Position numbers and translations under genes: made by a program. Of a DNA stretch of 32,693 nt, positions 8,200 to 18,042 are shown one piece after another. The stretch is from Thermomicrobiaceae bacterium. Lineage in GTDB: Bacteria > Chloroflexota > Chloroflexia > Thermomicrobiales > Thermomicrobiaceae. Under the pieces are notes generated by a model. It searched no databases. It was not told where the DNA came from and saw only the letters and a program-made list of their open reading frames with translations. Each line of letters starts with the position of its first letter. Position 1 is the first letter of the stretch. The stretch lies in the NCBI GenBank assembly GCA_007133615.1, contig SLMJ01000329.1, forward strand, positions 1-32,693, read 5' to 3'.

Positions 8200-8997
8200 A
8201 TGAAATGGAAAGTCTTACCAGTGCGTCAAAGCGATCAGTCCATCGAACCGATAAGCGCGGTTGGCAAGCTTGTCCGTCGAGCCAATCCACTCCGGGAGCG
8301 ATCGTTCCCACACGAGATCCTCGACGATGGCAATCATCCGGAGACCGATCTCTACGGAACGTTCGAAGACATGCGCCGGGTCAATTCGCTGCTCGGTGGT
8401 ACCAGCATCACACTCAAGGCCATCGAGCGACTGACCGGTAATATTCCGGCCGGCGATTCGCTGTCGATCGTTGACATTGGCGCCGGACACGCCGACATTC
8501 CCCGGGCGATTCGCGACTGGGCATCACGGCGGTCTCTCGGTCTCGAGGCAATCGCGCTCGACATCGATCATGCGACGCTGCTCACAGCGACGAGGTTGCC
8601 GGAAAACCACGGTTTCCACTTCCTGCAGGGCGACTTCCTGAATTTGCCACTTACCAACAATGCGGTGGATGTCTCGTTGTCATCGATGACTCTCCACCAT
8701 CTCACTGACGACGATGCTGTGTTGGCTCTTCGTGAGATGGCCAGAGTGTCGCGGCGGGGAATCATCGTTAACGACCTGATGCGCACGGTGCACGGATATC
8801 TCGTTGCATGGGGACTGGGGCGAATCGCGACTTCGAACCGCCTGACGCGACACGACGCCCATCGATCGATCCAGCGCGGCCGCACGGAGGGTGAACTCGC
8901 CGACCTGGCTGAACGCGCCGGTCTGCAGGCGCCGGTGTTCGATTCGACGCTCGGCTACCGCACCGCCATGACGATTGGAGTGCAGCCATGGCGATGA
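8200..8997 (+). CDS. Class I SAM-dependent methyltransferase, first gene of a biosynthetic cassette
   Basis: 265 residues. SAM-binding motif I is VDIGAGHADI (91-100), the acidic end of strand 2 is at Asp121 (ALDID), and GDFLNLPL (144-151) and MTLHHLTDDDAV (163-174) follow in the expected order. The C-terminal stretch IIVNDLMRT...LTRHDAHRSIQRGRT resembles methyltransferases that sit beside an FAD oxidoreductase in bacterial type III polyketide synthase clusters (recalled family knowledge, not searched). The start is uncertain: the ATG at 8200 has no clear ribosome site, while the GTG at 8221 has GGAAAG eight bases upstream. The 3' end overlaps the next gene by 10 bp, which implies translational coupling. 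It probably O- or C-methylates the product of the downstream ketosynthase; the acceptor is unknown. Confidence 0.85.
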   Translation: MKWKVLPVRQSDQSIEPISAVGKLVRRANPLRERSFPHEILDDGNHPETDLYGTFEDMRRVNSLLGGTSITLKAIERLTGNIPAGDSLSIVDIGAGHADIPRAIRDWASRRSLGLEAIALDIDHATLLTATRLPENHGFHFLQGDFLNLPLTNNAVDVSLSSMTLHHLTDDDAVLALREMARVSRRGIIVNDLMRTVHGYLVAWGLGRIATSNRLTRHDAHRSIQRGRTEGELADLAERAGLQAPVFDSTLGYRTAMTIGVQPWR

Positions 8998-10187
8998 CCG
9001 GTCAGCCACATGTCCTCATCGTTGGCGGCGGTCCGGCCGGGTCATCCACCGCGACGCGACTTGCGAGGGCCGGCATTGATGTAACCGTCATCGACCGCGC
9101 TGTCTTTCCAAGGGAGAAAGCCTGCGCCGAATACTGTAGTCCCGGCGTGGTTGACGCCCTGGACGATCTCGGTGCTCTGGAGCGAATTCAATCGAGGGAA
9201 CACGTCTGGCTCTCAAGCATGCAGATCGTTGCTCGCGGGAAATCAATACTGCTCGAGTTCGGATCCCATCGACCGTCCGGCAATCGCGCACTCGGCATCA
9301 AGCGATCGGTGCTCGATCAGGAACTGTTGCACCTGGCCGCGGAATCCGGTGCCCGCGTGCTGGAGAGTACCCGGGCAGTCAGAGCGACGCTGTCCGGCGG
9401 GGTCGTTTCCGGCGTCATTGCGAGGTCGGGCGAGCACGAATTTGCGATTCCGGCCGATTTCACCGTGGTTGCAGACGGACTGCACTCCACCATCGCCCGT
9501 TCGCTCGATCTTCACCGGCCCATCCGCTGGCCGAACCGGCTCGGTCTCGTCGCCCGTTTTACCGGTATGCCGGAGACAATCCAGGCCGGACAGATGCATA
9601 TAGGCGATGGTATCTACTGCGGGTTGTCCCCGGTTACAGACCGTGAAGCGAACGTCTCGCTGGTGGTTCCCATGGGATCGAAACCTGCCGGGGTTTCAAC
9701 AGGAGAATTCTTCGACGCGACGATTCGCACCATTCCTGGGATCGATCATCTCCTGGGGAATGCCCGGCGAATCTCACAGGTGCGCGGCGTTGGACCGCTC
9801 GGAAAACAGGCACGAAGATCGCACGGGCGGGGCTACCTGCTCGTTGGAGACGCCGCAGGTTTCTTCGATCCGCTAACCGGCGAGGGAGTTCACCGCGCGT
9901 TAAGCGGCGGGAAACTCGCCGCCAGCGCGGTCCAGCGTGCGCTTAACCGCCCCGATCGCCGACCGACCGGCTATCGCGGTGCCCGAAAGCGCATGCTGAA
10001 AGACAAACATCGGGTCTGTCAGATTATTCAGTTGTTGCTGCAGTCTCGACCGGCGCTGGACTACATCGCTGATCGGGCGGCAAAACGGGAATCTGTCAAC
10101 CAGACGCTGTGCGGCGTCCTCGGCGACTACATCCCGGCCCGAACAGCGCTTCGCCCACGATTTCTGTGGGATCTGCTGCGCCCCTGA
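8988..10187 (+). CDS. FAD-dependent oxidoreductase, geranylgeranyl-reductase-like
   Basis: 399 residues. The ATG at 8988 has GGAG seven bases upstream; an ATG at 8994 that overlaps the previous stop as ATGA is the alternative. Motifs in order are the FAD Rossmann loop GGGPAGSS (13-20) with acidic Asp36, a PREKACAEYCSPG stretch (41-53) where the geranylgeranyl reductase family usually has a KACGGG-like segment, VADG (161-164), and the second FAD signature GDAAGFFDPLTGEGV (287-301). No membrane segments are seen. The family includes hydroxylases and reductases of polyketides, quinones and isoprenoids. Here it presumably oxidises or reduces the cassette's intermediate. The Cys-rich PREKACAEYC variant is unusual and may reflect a different substrate. 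Confidence 0.88.
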   Translation: MAMTGQPHVLIVGGGPAGSSTATRLARAGIDVTVIDRAVFPREKACAEYCSPGVVDALDDLGALERIQSREHVWLSSMQIVARGKSILLEFGSHRPSGNRALGIKRSVLDQELLHLAAESGARVLESTRAVRATLSGGVVSGVIARSGEHEFAIPADFTVVADGLHSTIARSLDLHRPIRWPNRLGLVARFTGMPETIQAGQMHIGDGIYCGLSPVTDREANVSLVVPMGSKPAGVSTGEFFDATIRTIPGIDHLLGNARRISQVRGVGPLGKQARRSHGRGYLLVGDAAGFFDPLTGEGVHRALSGGKLAASAVQRALNRPDRRPTGYRGARKRMLKDKHRVCQIIQLLLQSRPALDYIADRAAKRESVNQTLCGVLGDYIPARTALRPRFLWDLLRP

Positions 10188-10215
10188 ACCGCCGACGACT
10201 GGAAGGAAGGGATCA

Positions 10216-10695
10216 ATGCATACCGAAACGAAAATATTCATTGAGGCTGATCCGATGACGGTGTACCGCTACGCCGCCGCAACCGAACGCTGGCCAGAGT
10301 TCCTGCCTCACTATCGCTGGGTCTACGAGCTCGATCGCGAAGGCGATAGCAAGCTGGTCGAAATGGCCGCGAACCGGAACTTCTACCTGTTCAACTGGCC
10401 GGTTCGATGGTGGGCGGCACAGACAAATATCGACGAGGAACCGCGTATCAAGTTCACCCACGTCGGAGGAATCACAAAAGGAATGGAAGTGGAATGGCTG
10501 TTCGAATCGAAAGACAACGGAGTGGAGGTAACCATCGTGCATGACCTGGAACTCAAGTGGCCACTCATCGGTGGATTCGCGGCGAGCTGGGTTGTCGGCC
10601 CCGTCTTCGTGGATGCGATCGCCGGGAAGACGCTGGCTCGCGTCAAGGAAATGGCCGAGGCCGGTCAGCCAGCACCGGCCGGGGCGTCATCATGA
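10216..10695 (+). CDS. SRPBCC-superfamily protein (polyketide cyclase/aromatase-like)
   Basis: 159 residues, with a strong GGAAGGAAGGG ribosome site. It starts with TKIFIEADPMTVYRYAAATERWPEFLPHYRWV, the usual beginning of START/Bet v1-type SRPBCC proteins (strand, helix, then the W-P-F-L-P-H segment seen in polyketide cyclases and coenzyme Q-binding proteins). It ends with a long C-terminal helix (about 125-150) followed by an Ala/Pro-rich tail. It has no conserved catalytic residues that can be named, since the fold works as a hydrophobic binding pocket. Its stop overlaps the ketosynthase start as ATGA. In this setting it may shape or cyclise a poly-beta-keto chain; binding a lipid or quinone is the alternative. 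Confidence 0.82.
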   Translation: MHTETKIFIEADPMTVYRYAAATERWPEFLPHYRWVYELDREGDSKLVEMAANRNFYLFNWPVRWWAAQTNIDEEPRIKFTHVGGITKGMEVEWLFESKDNGVEVTIVHDLELKWPLIGGFAASWVVGPVFVDAIAGKTLARVKEMAEAGQPAPAGASS

Positions 10696-11927
10696 ACCGG
10701 CGGGTTGTTGTTACGGGAATCGGCCTGATCACCCCGCTCGGAACCGGAAACGACGAGTCATGGGAATCACTTCGCGCCTGTAAATCGAAGGTTCGTGCGG
10801 TCGACTTCCTGAATCCTGATGAATTCAAGTCCAGGATTGCCGCGGCGATCCCGTGTTTCGATCCGCTCGACTACATGGCACCAAAACGCGCGAAACGGCT
10901 GGACCGCTTCAGCCAGCTTTCGGTTGCATCGAGCAAACTCGCCCTCGAAAATGCGGGCCTGACGATCACCGACGAGAACCGCGAAAAAATCGGGATCAAC
11001 CTCGGGTCAGCCCTCGGCGGCGTTGGCTATGGAGAAGCCCAGCACAACAAGTACTTCAATGGCGGATTGAAAGCGGTCGATCCGATGATCGCACTCTCGG
11101 TCTTTGGTGGAGCCGGTGCAACCAACGCGGCAATCGAGTTCGGCCTGCAGGGTCCGTCGATGGGAAACGCGAACTCCTGTGCCTCTGGTGCGAATGCAAT
11201 CGGCGAAGCGTTCCACATGATCAAGCGCGGCGAGATAGACATGATGCTCGCCGGAGGAGTAGAAGCACCACTTGCTCCAATGATCTTCGGCGGTTTCTCA
11301 TTGATTCGGGCGCTCTCCACTCGAAACGGTGATCCGACGCATGCCAGCCGGCCGTTCGATGCCGGTCGCGATGGATTCGTCCTTGGTGAAGCCGCAGCAA
11401 TTGTCCTGCTCGAAGACTACGAACACGCCGTAAATCGCGGCACGGAACCGATCGCCGAAATTACCGGCTACGCGGCGACCAACGATGCGTACAACATGAT
11501 CGCGCCAAGACCAGACGGAAGCCAGGCAGGCCGAGCGCTGGCGATGACGCTCGATGAAGCAGGTATCAGTCCCGACGAAGTGGACTATCTGAACACCCAT
11601 TCCACGTCAACGCCACTTGGCGATACCGCTGAATCTCTGGCCATCCATAACGCGCTTGGAGAACGAGCGAGCACGATACCTGTCAGCGGAACCAAGGGTT
11701 ATTACGGACATCCGCTTGGCGCCAGCGGAGCAGTTGAAGCGGCATTGATGTGCCTGATTCTTCAGAAGGGCTGGCTGCCACCTACCCTGAACATGGAGAA
11801 CCCGGATCCGGACGCCCCGCTCAATTTCGTCCGGGGAGAGGGACTCGAACAGTCGGTGGAAACCGTCATGTCATCCGCGCTCGGATTCGGTGGCATCAAC
11901 ACAGGCATGATCTTCCGGCGAATTTGA
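10692..11927 (+). CDS. Beta-ketoacyl-ACP synthase II (FabF)-type ketosynthase
   Basis: 411 residues, normal for FabF. The ATG at 10692 overlaps the previous stop by four bases; the longer open frame starting at 10557 lacks support. It begins with RRVVVTGIGLITPLGTG. The catalytic triad is complete: Cys163 (NANSCASGANAIG), His303 (NTHSTSTPLGD) and His340 (GTKGYYGHPLGASG). Three sites differ from textbook FabF: SCASG instead of TACATG, NTHST instead of NAHGT, and KGYYGH instead of KSMTGH. It is therefore probably a specialised enzyme rather than the housekeeping FabF. It catalyses decarboxylative Claisen condensation with malonyl-ACP. No acyl carrier protein or chain-length factor lies beside it. 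It is the last gene of a four-gene coupled set. Confidence 0.9.
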   Translation: MNRRVVVTGIGLITPLGTGNDESWESLRACKSKVRAVDFLNPDEFKSRIAAAIPCFDPLDYMAPKRAKRLDRFSQLSVASSKLALENAGLTITDENREKIGINLGSALGGVGYGEAQHNKYFNGGLKAVDPMIALSVFGGAGATNAAIEFGLQGPSMGNANSCASGANAIGEAFHMIKRGEIDMMLAGGVEAPLAPMIFGGFSLIRALSTRNGDPTHASRPFDAGRDGFVLGEAAAIVLLEDYEHAVNRGTEPIAEITGYAATNDAYNMIAPRPDGSQAGRALAMTLDEAGISPDEVDYLNTHSTSTPLGDTAESLAIHNALGERASTIPVSGTKGYYGHPLGASGAVEAALMCLILQKGWLPPTLNMENPDPDAPLNFVRGEGLEQSVETVMSSALGFGGINTGMIFRRI

Positions 11928-11965: not shown

Positions 11966-12001
11966 GTCCGTGGCCTGACAATTCGACGGAAAGGAACAAC
12001 G

Positions 12002-12973
12002 ATGTTCAGGATCGCCGAAGTCCTGCCCCCGGAGCCGAACCTGGCGTGGGAGACCACGTTGCAGGCCGGTGTGACGGAGGTTGTGGGCGGACTTCCGTGG
12101 AACGACCGGATGAATCGGGGCGATGCTCCGTGGGACTACATGCCGCTGTTGCGTATGAAGCAACGCTACAACGATGCCGGCTTCAACCTCGCCGTGATCG
12201 AGCAGCGGCCGCCTCTCTTCAAGGCCAAGCGTGGCCAGGATGGCCGTGACGAGGAAATCGATACCGTCTGCACCCTGATCGAGAACATGGGCAAACTCGG
12301 GATTCCGGTCTGGTGCTACGAGTGGATGGCGGATTTCGTCGTCCATCGAACGAGCAGGACGATCGAATCCCGCGGCGGATCACTCGTCACCGGGTATGAC
12401 AACTCGCTGGTTGCCGATGATCAGCCGGAACTGGGTCCGATCTCCGAGGAAGAACTCTTTGATAATCTCAGGTACTTCCTGGAACGAGTCATTCCGGTTG
12501 CCGAAAAGGCGGGCGTGACGCTGGCGATGCACCCGGACGACCCCCCGCTGTCGCCGACTCGTGGCGTTTCCCGGATCATGTGCAGCGTCGAGAACTACCA
12601 GCGCCTGATCGACATGATTCCCAGCCCGGTCAACCAGATCGCGCTCTGCCAGGGGAACTTCACCCTGATGACCGACGATCTTCCCGGTGTCATTCGCCAT
12701 TTCGGCAATCAGGGCAAGGTCGCGTTCGTCCATTTCCGGGATGTTCAGGGAACTCCGGATAACTTCGTCGAGACCTGGCACGACAACGGCAAGACCGACA
12801 TGCTGGAGTGCATGCGGGCCTGGCGGGACGTCGGGTACGAGGGCGTTATGCGTCCAGACCACGTTCCGGTGATTGCCGGGGATGATCCCAACCAGTACTC
12901 AGCGTACGCTGCCCTCTACGCTCTCGGCTACATGCGAGGGCTGCGAGATTCAGTTTATCGAGAGAAGCATTAG
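12002..12973 (+). CDS. Mannonate dehydratase (UxuA)-like TIM-barrel enzyme
   Basis: 323 residues from the ATG at 12002, with GGAAAGGAA upstream; the longer frame beginning at 11750 overlaps the ketosynthase and is rejected. Family motifs are MHPDDPP (176-182), CQGNF (216-220), VHFRDVQG (243-250) and MRPDHVP (283-289), which hold the metal-binding His/Asp/Cys residues of UxuA. UxuA dehydrates D-mannonate to 2-keto-3-deoxygluconate. The protein is clearly shorter than the about 394 residues of the E. coli enzyme, so a related sugar-acid dehydratase or isomerase activity is possible. The next gene, RraA-like, lies 61 bases downstream on the same strand. Confidence 0.82.
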   Translation: MFRIAEVLPPEPNLAWETTLQAGVTEVVGGLPWNDRMNRGDAPWDYMPLLRMKQRYNDAGFNLAVIEQRPPLFKAKRGQDGRDEEIDTVCTLIENMGKLGIPVWCYEWMADFVVHRTSRTIESRGGSLVTGYDNSLVADDQPELGPISEEELFDNLRYFLERVIPVAEKAGVTLAMHPDDPPLSPTRGVSRIMCSVENYQRLIDMIPSPVNQIALCQGNFTLMTDDLPGVIRHFGNQGKVAFVHFRDVQGTPDNFVETWHDNGKTDMLECMRAWRDVGYEGVMRPDHVPVIAGDDPNQYSAYAALYALGYMRGLRDSVYREKH

Positions 12974-13034
12974 ATCAATACGCGCGTCGAGCAACGGTGC
13001 TCGCCTTGACGCTGCCAGGAAAGGAATCCGATTA

Positions 13035-13778
13035 ATGCCACCGCAGGTGAAGGACATCAATCGACCGGACAAAAAGATCGTTCAACAGCTCGCCGAACTC
13101 GGCAGCGCCACGGTTTCCAGTAGTCTCTCCAAGCTCGGCATCCGCGACGTTCATCTGACCGGACTCCAGAACTGGACCCCGGGCAAAGCGATCGCCGGAC
13201 CGGCCGTTACCCTGCAATTCATGCCCCTCCGTGAGGATCAATACAAGCAGGACGAGTATTCTGACCCGGAAGAGCAGCTTCACCGCCATGCGCTTTACAC
13301 CAGCCAGGAAGGCGACATCGTCGTGGTCGATGCTCGAGGAAGCATGAGCAGTGGGGTCTTCGGCGACATGATGCTCACTTACTTTGCCGGCAAAGGTGGT
13401 GCTGGCGTAGTGATCGATGGCTGTATCCGTGACTGGCCGAAGGCCAAGAAGCTGGAAAGCCTCGGATTCTGGATCAAGGGCACAACCCCGAACTTTCACA
13501 CGCAAACAGAGATCTTCCCCTACGCCGTGAACGTTCCAATTGCCTGCTGCGACACGCTGGTGATGCCAGGCGATATCATTGTCGCCGATGACGATGGTGT
13601 CGCCACGGTGCCGGTCAGTATGGTTGACCAGCTACTCGAGCGCGCCAGCTTCCATCACGAGTGGGAAGACTTCTCGCGGGAGCGTCTGATGCAGGGTGGC
13701 GACCTTCGCCGGTACTACCCGTTGCACGACGACGCCCGGGAAGAATACGAGCAGTGGAAGAAGGAACGGGGACACTAA
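13035..13778 (+). CDS. RraA-like / HMG aldolase family protein
   Basis: 247 residues from the ATG at 13035, preceded by AGGAAAGGAA. It shows the family core: GDIVVVDARGSMSSGVFGDMM (about 93-113) and VVIDGCIRDW (125-134). Arg132 and Asp133 match the substrate/metal-binding pair of 4-hydroxy-4-methyl-2-oxoglutarate aldolases. The C-terminal half has PGDIIVADDDGVATVP, also typical. Members either cleave 4-hydroxy-2-oxo acids or are non-catalytic RNase E regulators (RraA proper). Next to a sugar-acid dehydratase, an aldolase or decarboxylase acting on a keto-deoxy acid is more likely. The Glu-rich C-terminal extension (about 205-247) is longer than in RraA. Confidence 0.85.
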   Translation: MPPQVKDINRPDKKIVQQLAELGSATVSSSLSKLGIRDVHLTGLQNWTPGKAIAGPAVTLQFMPLREDQYKQDEYSDPEEQLHRHALYTSQEGDIVVVDARGSMSSGVFGDMMLTYFAGKGGAGVVIDGCIRDWPKAKKLESLGFWIKGTTPNFHTQTEIFPYAVNVPIACCDTLVMPGDIIVADDDGVATVPVSMVDQLLERASFHHEWEDFSRERLMQGGDLRRYYPLHDDAREEYEQWKKERGH

Positions 13779-13832
13779 CCTCATGCGAATTCGGACCGGC
13801 ATCGGCAATTCGACTGAAGAAGGTGCCGCGTC

Positions 13833-15002
13833 ATGACCGCAGCGAAATCAAACGAACTGGCAGCGCCGCTCGGGATTCTGGGCGGCGGTCAGCTTGGTCG
13901 GATGACGATCCAGGCCGCCAGCACGCTCGGAATTGACGTGGTCGTCGGTGATTTCAAACCTCGCTCGCCTGCCGGGAGACTGGCCCAGGGCGAAGTAATC
14001 TTCACTGGCGGTTGGGATGACAACGAAGCTATCACCGAGATAGCCCGTAGTGCGCCGGTAATAACCCTGGAAAACGAGTTCGTTGATGCCTGCGTGCTGG
14101 AGAAACTGGAAGGCGCCGGTTCAACCGTCCTTCCCACTCCAGACTGCGTCCGGACCGTTCAGGACAAACTCAAACAGAAGACGGCAATGCAGAGTGCCGG
14201 AATTCCGGTGCCGGAGTTTCGCAAGGTCGAACACCCCGACGATCTCGCAATGATCGGCGATGAGCTCGGCTGGCCGTTTGTGCTCAAGGCTCGCCGGGAC
14301 GGTTACGACGGCTATGGCAATCGAAAGCTCGACCACGGCTCGGATCCAGCGAGTACGTGCGAGGAACTCGGCTGGCCGGAGCGAGAGCTGTTCGTCGAGC
14401 AGTTCGTGCCATTCGAACGCGAGCTTGCCGTGATTGTCGTCCGTGGTCGTGACGGAGAAACGATCAACTACCCTGTTGTCGAAACGCAGCAAGACCCGGA
14501 GCTGCATATCTGTCGAGTCGTGATCGCTCCGGCCGATATCCCGGCGACGGTTGCTGAGCAGGCGGAAGCGATCGCCCGGCAGGCAGTCGAGTCCGTTGGC
14601 GGTACCGGAACGTTCGGCGTGGAAATGTTCCTGCTGCAGGACGGGCAGGTGCTAGTCAATGAACTGGCCCCACGGCCGCACAACTCCGGTCACTACACGA
14701 TCGAAGGGTGTGTTACCTCCCAGTTTGAAAACCACGTCCGGGCTGTCCTGGGATTGCCGCTCGGCGATCCGTCCCTGCGAGAGGGCGCAGCAGTGATGGT
14801 CAATCTGCTCGGCTATGGCGGCGAAATGCCCGGGAAAGATCAGTTCGACTCCGCGCTCTCGGTTCCGGGAGTTCACCTGCACAACTATGGCAAGGACCAA
14901 AGCCGCTACGGACGCAAGATGGGACACATCACCGCGTGCGGAAGTTCGACTGAGGACGCGCTTGATCGCGCTCAGCGCGCGGCAGACCAGATAAGGATGT
15001 AA
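13833..15002 (+). CDS. purK: N5-carboxyaminoimidazole ribonucleotide synthase
   Basis: 389 residues. It joins AIR, bicarbonate and ATP to form N5-CAIR in de novo purine synthesis. The N-terminal [11 protein letters not shown] (14-24), the ATP-grasp segments ([32 protein letters not shown]) and the metal-binding [15 protein letters not shown] are all present and intact. The ATG at 13833 follows AAGAAGGTG. It begins 54 bases after the RraA-like gene and is followed after only five bases by purE. This is the standard bacterial order and indicates co-translation. Confidence 0.97.
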
Positions 15003-15007
15003 CGGGA

Positions 15008-15508
15008 ATGAACGGCACTCCGCTCGTCGGAATCGCAATGGGCAGTTCGTCCGACCTGCCGACTCTACAGCCAGCAATCGATGTCCTTACCGAGTTCGGC
15101 GTCCCCCACGAGGTGCGGGTTCTCTCCGCACACCGAACTCCGGACCGCATGAGCGAATACGCCCGGACGGCCCACGAGCGAGGTCTGAAGGTCATTGTTG
15201 CCGGAGCCGGCGGCGCAGCGCATCTGCCGGGCATGATCGCCGCAAGCACGCCGCTACCGGTTATCGGTGTGCCGGTCGACACATCCTCTGGAACGATCGG
15301 CGGCATCGACGCCCTGTTGTCTATTGCCCAGATGCCGCGCGGTGTTCCCGTTGCCACCGTCGCAATCGGTGGAGGCCAGAACGCCGGTATCCTGGCCGCT
15401 CAGATCTGCGCCGCGGGGGATCCGCAGTTGCTCGAAAAGCTCATCAATTACAAGGAAAGCCTCAAAGAGAAGGTCCTGCAGCAGGACGAGGATGTGCGGA
15501 ATAGCTGA
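15008..15508 (+). CDS. purE: N5-carboxyaminoimidazole ribonucleotide mutase
   Basis: 166 residues, normal for class I PurE. It converts N5-CAIR to CAIR, the step after PurK. Visible motifs are GIAMGSSSD (8-16), [10 protein letters not shown] (38-47), and [12 protein letters not shown], which contains the conserved glycine-rich loop, followed by [22 protein letters not shown]. The presence of purK argues for the N5-CAIR (class I) reaction. It ends about 107 bases before the next gene. Confidence 0.97.
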
Positions 15509-16694: not shown

Positions 16695-16845
16695 TGGCGT
16701 CCGAGTGTGACGGTACGTGTATTGCGCGACCGAATCCGTCGGGGTAGAGTTGCCGTTATCGACGCGACTCGACGAACGAAAGGATGGTCGGGGTTCACCC
16801 GGCAAGCCGGATTTTCAAACGTCTCGGGATGCAAGGATCTTTTTC

Positions 16846-18042
16846 ATGCAGCGTATTTTTCTGATTGCTCTTGCCGCAGCGCTGATCGCCGTTGCCGCAC
16901 CCACCAACGTCAGCCAGGCCGTGGCAGAAGAAGGCCCCGATCAGGTCTATTTCGATGTCACCGGTCACTATCTGGAAGACGAGTTCCTGGATTTCTGGCG
17001 CGAATACGGCGGCATCCAGACGTTTGGCTACCCCCTGACACCGGCATTTGGGCAGGACGGAATGACCGTCCAGTACTTCGAGCGGCATGTCCTCGAGTAT
17101 CATCCCGACAATCCCGATGAGTATCAGGTCCTGCTCCGACGCCTTGGTGCAGATGCTCGCGACGACCGCAATCTCGCACATCGCTGGCCCTTCGATGCGC
17201 ACGAAGAGGAAAACCCGGATCGCTTCTTCCCGGCAACACAGCAGAACCTGAGTCACCGTTTCGCCGACTACTGGGAAGACAACGGCGGAACGCGCATCTT
17301 CGGCTACCCGATCAGTTCGCAATTCCGGCATCACGGAACCCGCGTACAGTTCACTGAACGCGCCATTTTCGAGCACCATCCGGACAACGATCCGGAATGG
17401 GAGATTCTGTTCGAACGACTCGGCGCGCAGGCAGCAGAGCGCGACGGTGTCGACACCTCGCCTCAGGAGCACGACGGCGCCACACCGCATTACGATGAAG
17501 ATCTCTGGCAGGAACCAGAGCCCGAGCCTGAACCGGCGACATCGTCCAGTGGCTCATCAGGCTCAACAGATTCGGAAGCTACATCGAATTCCCCGGCACT
17601 TCCGGCCGAACTTCGAATCGATCGGATCGGTGTTCGCTCGAGCTTCGAGCACCTCGGTCGAAACTCGATCGGCGCAATGGCAGACCCGGTCGGCTGGGAC
17701 AACGTCTCCTGGTTCAATGAAGGTCCACGCCCTGGTGAACGGGGCAACGCTGCAGTGGCCGGACATCTGGATCGGCCCGGAGGAGCGCCGGCGGCATTCT
17801 GGAATCTCAGGCAGTTGCGTCCCGGAGATCGCGTGACGGTGATTACCGAGGCTGGCGAGGAACTCGTTTTCGAGATCACTGAGATGGAGCAATTCCACAT
17901 CAACAACCCGCCCACCAGCAAGATCTTCGGTAGCTCCGACAGCCGCGACATGAACCTGATCACCTGTGCCGGGAACTGGGATACGTCAATCGGAATGTAT
18001 GATCAGCGTCTGGTGGCCTATACAACGCTAGTGAGTGACTAG
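16846..18042 (+). CDS. Secreted class E/F-like sortase with two TGH/FGYP modules
   Basis: 398 residues from the ATG at 16846, chosen because it gives a signal peptide (MQRIFLIALAAALIAVAAP, Ala-rich cleavage zone near 25-28) and has AAGGAT upstream. Two repeated modules follow: FDVTGHYLEDEFLDFWREYG...FGYPLT...QYFERHVLEYHPDN (about 36-100) and a second copy (about 127-193, FGYPISS, ERAIFEHHPDN). A Glu/Pro then Ser/Thr-rich linker (about 222-252) leads to a sortase domain (about 253-398). Its catalytic His307 (AGHLD), Cys374 (LITCAG) and Arg388 (DQRLVAY) are all present. Sortases cleave and transpeptidate sorting signals at the cell surface. No LPXTG-type substrate is visible in the window, so this one may process a distant substrate or itself act as a crosslinking surface protein. 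Confidence 0.88.
   Translation: MQRIFLIALAAALIAVAAPTNVSQAVAEEGPDQVYFDVTGHYLEDEFLDFWREYGGIQTFGYPLTPAFGQDGMTVQYFERHVLEYHPDNPDEYQVLLRRLGADARDDRNLAHRWPFDAHEEENPDRFFPATQQNLSHRFADYWEDNGGTRIFGYPISSQFRHHGTRVQFTERAIFEHHPDNDPEWEILFERLGAQAAERDGVDTSPQEHDGATPHYDEDLWQEPEPEPEPATSSSGSSGSTDSEATSNSPALPAELRIDRIGVRSSFEHLGRNSIGAMADPVGWDNVSWFNEGPRPGERGNAAVAGHLDRPGGAPAAFWNLRQLRPGDRVTVITEAGEELVFEITEMEQFHINNPPTSKIFGSSDSRDMNLITCAGNWDTSIGMYDQRLVAYTTLVSD

Follow-up and report, generated by a model that had tools for sequence, protein, structure and literature searches.

A Methyltransferase–FAD Oxidoreductase–SRPBCC–Ketosynthase Cassette in Thermomicrobiaceae: A Candidate Aromatic-Lipid Pathway

Type II aromatic polyketide synthases (PKSs) use an acyl carrier protein (ACP), and type III PKSs require neither a carrier protein nor partners. 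Against this background, the locus described here raises the question of which pathway is encoded when a FabF-like ketosynthase (KS) is grouped with a methyltransferase (MT), an FAD oxidoreductase, and an SRPBCC protein, and of how this KS is supplied with a carrier. The reading we favor, with a probability of about 0.6, is an aromatic-lipid pathway of the phenolic-lipid type, in which the SRPBCC protein and the KS together replace a type III PKS and use the fatty-acid ACP.

Layout and conservation of the cassette

The window, i.e., the whole stretch of 32,693 nucleotides that was analyzed, is a contig of a 3.78 Mb genome with a completeness of 98%. The cassette spans positions 8200–11927 and consists of four co-directional genes in the order MT, FAD oxidoreductase, SRPBCC, KS:

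8200–8997, + strand: MT, class I SAM methyltransferase, 265 aa; Pfam Methyltransf_11
8988–10187, + strand: FAD oxidoreductase of the FAD_binding_3/geranylgeranyl-reductase/flavin halogenase superfamily, 399 aa; Pfam FAD_binding_3
10216–10695, + strand: SRPBCC protein, aromatase/cyclase-like by profile and predicted-fold matches, 159 aa; Pfam Polyketide_cyc
10692–11927, + strand: KS, FabF-like, of a separate clade, 411 aa, ATG start; Pfam ketoacyl-synt N and C

MT and FAD genes overlap by 10 nt, FAD and SRPBCC genes are separated by a 28-nt gap, and SRPBCC and KS genes overlap by 4 nt (ATGA), in agreement with a preliminary description that had noted four genes in one direction with junctions that overlap or measure less than 30 nt. 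The same description had stated that neither an ACP nor a chain-length factor (CLF) adjoins the KS, which is borne out at the locus: neither gene was found beside the cassette. Pfam detected no fatty-acid-cycle reductase or dehydratase within it, and a scan for promoters and terminators gave a result at chance level. A longer KS reading frame with a GTG start at 10557 was discarded as an artefact of the ORF listing. The downstream genes uxuA-rraA-purK-purE are common to the window's genus only.

A dedicated pathway had been expected to keep these genes together in related genomes, and absent linkage had been named as an argument against it. We found that linkage is kept across the order, the phylum, and other phyla: Among 68 loci examined, KS and SRPBCC genes are adjacent in 60; by content, 41 loci hold all four genes, nine hold KS, SRPBCC, and FAD, four hold KS, SRPBCC, and MT, and six hold KS and SRPBCC only, with several of the incomplete loci stopping at contig edges. 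In loci of relatives selected by their KS, the SRPBCC gene adjoins the KS in nearly all cases, FAD and MT genes lie upstream, and the outer neighbors differ from genus to genus; no conserved fifth gene was seen across the cassette loci compared. The SRPBCC profile, with matches in about 9% of 400 Chloroflexota genomes, was also used to select 33 loci independently, and in 26 of these the KS gene adjoins the SRPBCC gene. Some loci are devoid of FAD or MT, and a few carry the SRPBCC gene without a KS; the latter (L205, L208, L213, L215) have unrelated neighbors and were not counted as cassettes. Loci with all four genes occur in Chloroflexota, Gemmatimonadota, and Eremiobacterota: The order in a Gemmatimonadota MAG is FAD-flavin reductase-MT-SRPBCC-KS, an Eremiobacterota (“Vulcanimicrobiota”) MAG has the complete set, and Verrucomicrobiota MAGs have SRPBCC-KS or the KS alone, where single out-of-phylum MAG cases could reflect binning errors. 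Because numerous divergent genomes have the four genes together, but amid differing outside neighbors, their grouping is not due to chance. In one locus, a UbiA prenyltransferase gene directly follows the KS; a cyanobacterial hierridin-like cluster likewise has a prenyltransferase.

The ketosynthase and its carrier

The catalytic triad Cys163/His303/His340 is intact, as is Lys335, which confirms from the sequence the earlier assignment to FabF-like KSs with a complete triad; all four residues are kept in 61 of 61 KSs of the clade delineated below. The active-site contexts, which had been singled out as unusual, are present as NSCASG (161; including the reported SCASG), NTHST (301), and KGYYGH (335), but the last of these conforms to KG[LYM][HY][GA]H, the pattern that clade members of this order typically show. 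NTHST is particular to the genus of the window, where congeners show NSHST, and NAH plus A or G is the prevailing form in the clade. Over the 61 members, the residues diagnostic of the clade are Ala107 (Gly in FabF), Leu108 (Ile or Met in FabF), and Ser or Gly at position 162 preceding the catalytic Cys (Ala in FabF); moreover, position 338 is mostly His or Tyr (mostly Thr in FabF) and position 402 is hydrophobic (His, Thr, or Gln in FabF).

These differences are paralleled by profile scores and phylogeny. FabF is the best NCBI model for the cassette KS, which nevertheless reaches 462.9 bits and thereby stays below the cutoff of 493.75 bits of the FabF equivalog model TIGR03150, whereas three other KSs of the genome exceed it with 592, 542, and 502 bits. 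The genome thus encodes four FabF-type KSs, the fifth PF00109 match being a thiolase. Within the order, the window KS is 49–83% identical to cassette KSs and about 40% identical to other KSs. In a maximum-likelihood tree of 74 rows, computed by a quick search without bootstraps and with KS-α/CLF represented by Streptomyces only, a single clade with an SH-aLRT support of 99 unites the cassette KSs of Chloroflexota, Gemmatimonadota, Eremiobacterota, and Verrucomicrobiota. FabF (support 90) and the Streptomyces KS-α/CLF sequences lie outside it. The separation from housekeeping FabF that had been anticipated is hence observed, and the opposite outcome, a KS that is the genome's only FabF, did not materialize: it is one of four and lies outside the FabF clade. 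In summary, cassette KS and FabF share the family, the Cys-His-His triad, and Lys335; the former differs in its own clade, its score below the cutoff, and changes at positions 107, 108, 161, 162, 336–338, and 402. That the KS is a duplicated housekeeping FabF with chance neighbors, as its family, its triad, and its best NCBI model might suggest, is refuted by the separate clade, the synteny across phyla, and the score below the cutoff, and we regard it as scarcely credible.

With respect to the carrier, the window genome contains a single ACP gene (PF00550) and no dedicated ACP. No CLF/KS-β was found, either beside the cassette or in the rest of the genome (98% complete), which likewise encodes no KS without the active-site Cys, and the loci compared show no second KS beside the cassette KS. 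Because of the single ACP and the absence of a Cys-less KS from the genome, CLF-free operation of the KS on the fatty-acid ACP is the most likely case, unless the 2% that the assembly lacks holds further genes; the borrowing of this ACP had been suggested before and fits the single gene found. In some relatives, PP-binding domains are more numerous, and many of them lie in long ORFs with the appearance of NRPS or PKS genes. The same inventory bears on the idea of a true type II PKS with CLF and ACP encoded elsewhere. Its usual clusters have an aromatase/cyclase near the KS, an FAD oxygenase, and often a methyltransferase, which resembles the cassette, but here the KS falls outside the KS-α clade without an adjoining second KS, the three other FabF-type KSs of the genome all keep the active-site Cys, and the genome has one ACP; we deem a type II system very improbable.

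Partner enzymes and the link to type III PKSs

The MT and the FAD enzyme had both been likened to partners of type III PKSs, a resemblance that proved specific for the MT and holds at superfamily level only for the FAD enzyme. A profile of the cassette MTs (METHYLTRANSFERASE) gives 309–367 bits to cassette members in relatives, 233 bits to the type III PKS-linked MT of genome G023, 110–233 bits to type III-linked MTs overall, and at most 61 bits to the other MTs in 31 related genomes, one extra copy in genome G003 excepted. Of twelve annotated plasmid matches to the MT, eleven have a gene annotated as type III PKS at a distance of no more than about 3 kb, and the twelfth adjoins a gene whose product has a KAS III C-terminal domain; a neighboring FAD enzyme is also present in most cases. 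In Paludisphaera, the gene order is MT-FAD-type III PKS. The MT comparison took in MTs from type III PKS loci and left out HidA; in the resulting tree, which was rooted on distant outgroups (outgroup branch support 88), the type III-linked MTs branch within the cassette MTs and separately from other MTs. Judged by its sequence, the MT belongs to a family found in company with type III PKSs. The second MT copy of G003 (L277) has an unrelated DAO-type FAD gene nearby, and neither a KS nor a type III PKS was identified in its vicinity.

Type III PKSs themselves (PF00195) are absent from the window genome and from nearly the whole order. The exception is G023, which is without the KS cassette and has MT, FAD, and type III PKS genes together. 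Among 400 Chloroflexota genomes, not one combines an SRPBCC match with a type III PKS, where 5.6–7.2 would be expected (37 SRPBCC genomes versus 60–78 type III PKS genomes; P(0) 0.002–0.0002, a value confounded by phylogeny); at genus and family level, too, the two never co-occur.

The SRPBCC protein matches aromatase/cyclases at the family level, by sequence as well as by predicted fold. Compared with the PDB, a profile of 25 family members ranks BexL, WhiE-ORFVI, and TcmN first, and a search of 72,556 plasmids with a family member yielded five Streptomyces records and nothing else, all five being annotated as aromatase/cyclase. For the AlphaFold model (pLDDT 87), the top fold match is the uncharacterized TTHA0849 from Thermus, with the aromatase/cyclases WhiE-ORFVI, TcmN, and ZhuI at ranks 3–15. 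Trp26 and Tyr33 align with a Trp and a Tyr of TcmN; the catalytic Arg69 of TcmN falls into a gap of the alignment, and the conserved Arg34 and Arg54 of the family are located elsewhere. The protein is hence predicted to be a relative of aromatase/cyclases, within a fold that is versatile. This kinship had been missed in the preliminary description.

For the FAD enzyme, profile and fold matches comprise FADH2-dependent halogenases, PqsL, and geranylgeranyl (GG) reductases, with which it shares the fold and the FAD motifs. We consider it probably a ring oxygenase, with low certainty. A role as type III-specific partner was rejected: Type III-linked FAD enzymes score 46–136 bits with the FAD profile, and GG-reductase-type paralogues, which occur in most relatives, score equally or higher, with up to 190 bits. 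The pathway could also be an aromatic-lipid pathway with an FADH2-dependent halogenase as its FAD enzyme and hence a halogenated instead of a hydroxylated product. The best solved relatives of the enzyme are in fact the halogenases FasV, PltA, CmlS, and ChlB4, and a flavin reductase is encoded inside the Gemmatimonadota operon, but PqsL and GG reductases belong to the same superfamily, and the cassette family conserves no Lys near the segment that holds the Lys of the aligned halogenases, the alignment being weak there; this variant appears quite unlikely.

A further alternative dispenses with aromatic chemistry: In a lipid-modification operon, the KS would carry out one or two elongations of a special fatty acid, the SRPBCC protein would bind or carry the lipid, the FAD enzyme would act as a GG-reductase-like saturase, and the MT would methylate the chain or the head group. 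The match of the FAD enzyme to the GG-reductase family TIGR02032 (145.9 bits, under the cutoff of 158.8) and the scores of the GG-reductase-type paralogues point in this direction, as do the frequency of lipid binding among SRPBCC proteins, a weak match to 1t17 (CC1736), and the MT- and SRPBCC-containing locus L205, which has no KS and adjoins phospholipid genes. However, the closest solved relatives of the SRPBCC protein are aromatase/cyclases, the MT family goes along with type III PKS clusters, and the cassette is devoid of a fatty-acid-cycle reductase or dehydratase; on balance, we judge this operon type to be unlikely.

Proposed pathway and relation to known systems

For the favored aromatic-lipid pathway, we infer substrates, number of extensions, homodimeric state, ring chemistry, and product from enzyme families and gene order. 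The KS would take an acyl chain from the only ACP of the cell and extend it with malonyl-ACP in the absence of ketoreduction, yielding a short poly-β-keto chain; since the genome yielded no CLF, it would act as a homodimer. In the next step, the SRPBCC protein would fold and dehydrate the chain to an aromatic ring of the resorcinol type or a related one, which would be oxygenated by the FAD enzyme and then methylated by the MT. KS and SRPBCC protein would thus jointly perform the task that a single type III PKS performs in hidABC-like operons.

The cassette shares with type II PKSs (act, tcm, whiE) a KS of the FabF superfamily, an SRPBCC aromatase/cyclase, an FAD oxygenase, and a methyltransferase; it differs in having neither a CLF nor a dedicated ACP and in a KS outside the KS-α clade. 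Known type II aromatic PKSs elongate with an obligate KS/CLF heterodimer (PMC12664062). The literature connects alkylresorcinols with both hidABC (hierridin B) and planctomycetal operons of the MT-oxidoreductase-type III PKS kind (PMC8086630, PMC10896814). With these operons, the cassette has in common the order of MT, FAD enzyme, and condensing enzyme, the MT family, and the format of a small, self-contained operon in non-conserved surroundings that is scattered over phyla, whereas an SRPBCC protein and a FabF-like KS take the place of the type III PKS and extension is presumably ACP-dependent instead of CoA-dependent. As tested, the cassette is a variant among aromatic polyketide/phenolic-lipid operons and a member of neither the type II nor the type III PKSs. 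In those parts of the open-access literature that were searchable, we found no published description of it (KS without CLF, SRPBCC with KS, Thermomicrobiales polyketides), an absence that does not amount to proof.

More generally, and with somewhat less than even confidence, we propose a further aromatic-polyketide architecture, in which a CLF-free, FabF-like, probably homodimeric KS on the fatty-acid ACP passes an unreduced chain to an SRPBCC aromatase/cyclase and which, in phenolic-lipid operons, functionally takes the place of type III PKSs, with Chloroflexota, Gemmatimonadota, Eremiobacterota, and perhaps Verrucomicrobiota as the phyla concerned. If so, a widespread KS–cyclase pair without its own CLF or ACP would represent a minimal form between fatty-acid and aromatic polyketide synthesis, and would point to an exchange of the condensing enzyme in the evolution of phenolic-lipid operons. 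It would also indicate unseen aromatic lipids in cultured thermophiles: Locus L042 of genome G005, which we take to be Sphaerobacter thermophilus, holds all four genes, and locus L154 of genome G157, which we take to be Thermobaculum terrenum, holds KS-SRPBCC-FAD, making both cultured carriers of the cassette.

Additional genes in cassettes of other genomes

Further genes lie within or next to the cassette in other genomes:

L068, 4223-4699: flavin reductase gene inside a Gemmatimonadota cassette, with the FAD enzyme on one side and the methyltransferase on the other
L210, 7177-8043: UbiA prenyltransferase gene, starting immediately past the ketosynthase gene of one Chloroflexota cassette

The flavin reductase within the Gemmatimonadota cassette suggests that the FAD enzyme encoded there takes up free FADH2, and the UbiA prenyltransferase may have the cassette product as its prenylation target.

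SRPBCC and methyltransferase homologues

The closest solved fold to the SRPBCC protein is that of TTHA0849 from Thermus (PDB 2d4r), which is uncharacterised. Homologues of the SRPBCC protein are present at four loci (L205, L208, L213 and L215) from which the ketosynthase is absent: at L205 the homologue is adjoined by phosphatidylserine decarboxylase/CDP-alcohol transferase, at L213 by an AMP-ligase and two aldo-keto reductases, and L215 shares the gene layout of L213.

The methyltransferase family occurs on Sphingobium and Novosphingobium plasmids (L267, L274), together with a phosphopantetheine-binding protein, a ketosynthase and a type III PKS, which is a mixed arrangement. A relative within the genus (G003) carries a second copy, near which neither a ketosynthase nor a type III PKS was identified:

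L277 (contig C8), 2974-4071: second cassette-type methyltransferase, 262 bits

Window genes outside the cassette

11999-15508: UxuA-like, RraA-like, purK and purE genes, after the cassette
16717-18042: class F sortase-like protein whose N-terminal region is long

Conservation of the UxuA-like to purE stretch is limited to the genus. Stretches related to the sortase-like protein are found on contig C219 (L065).
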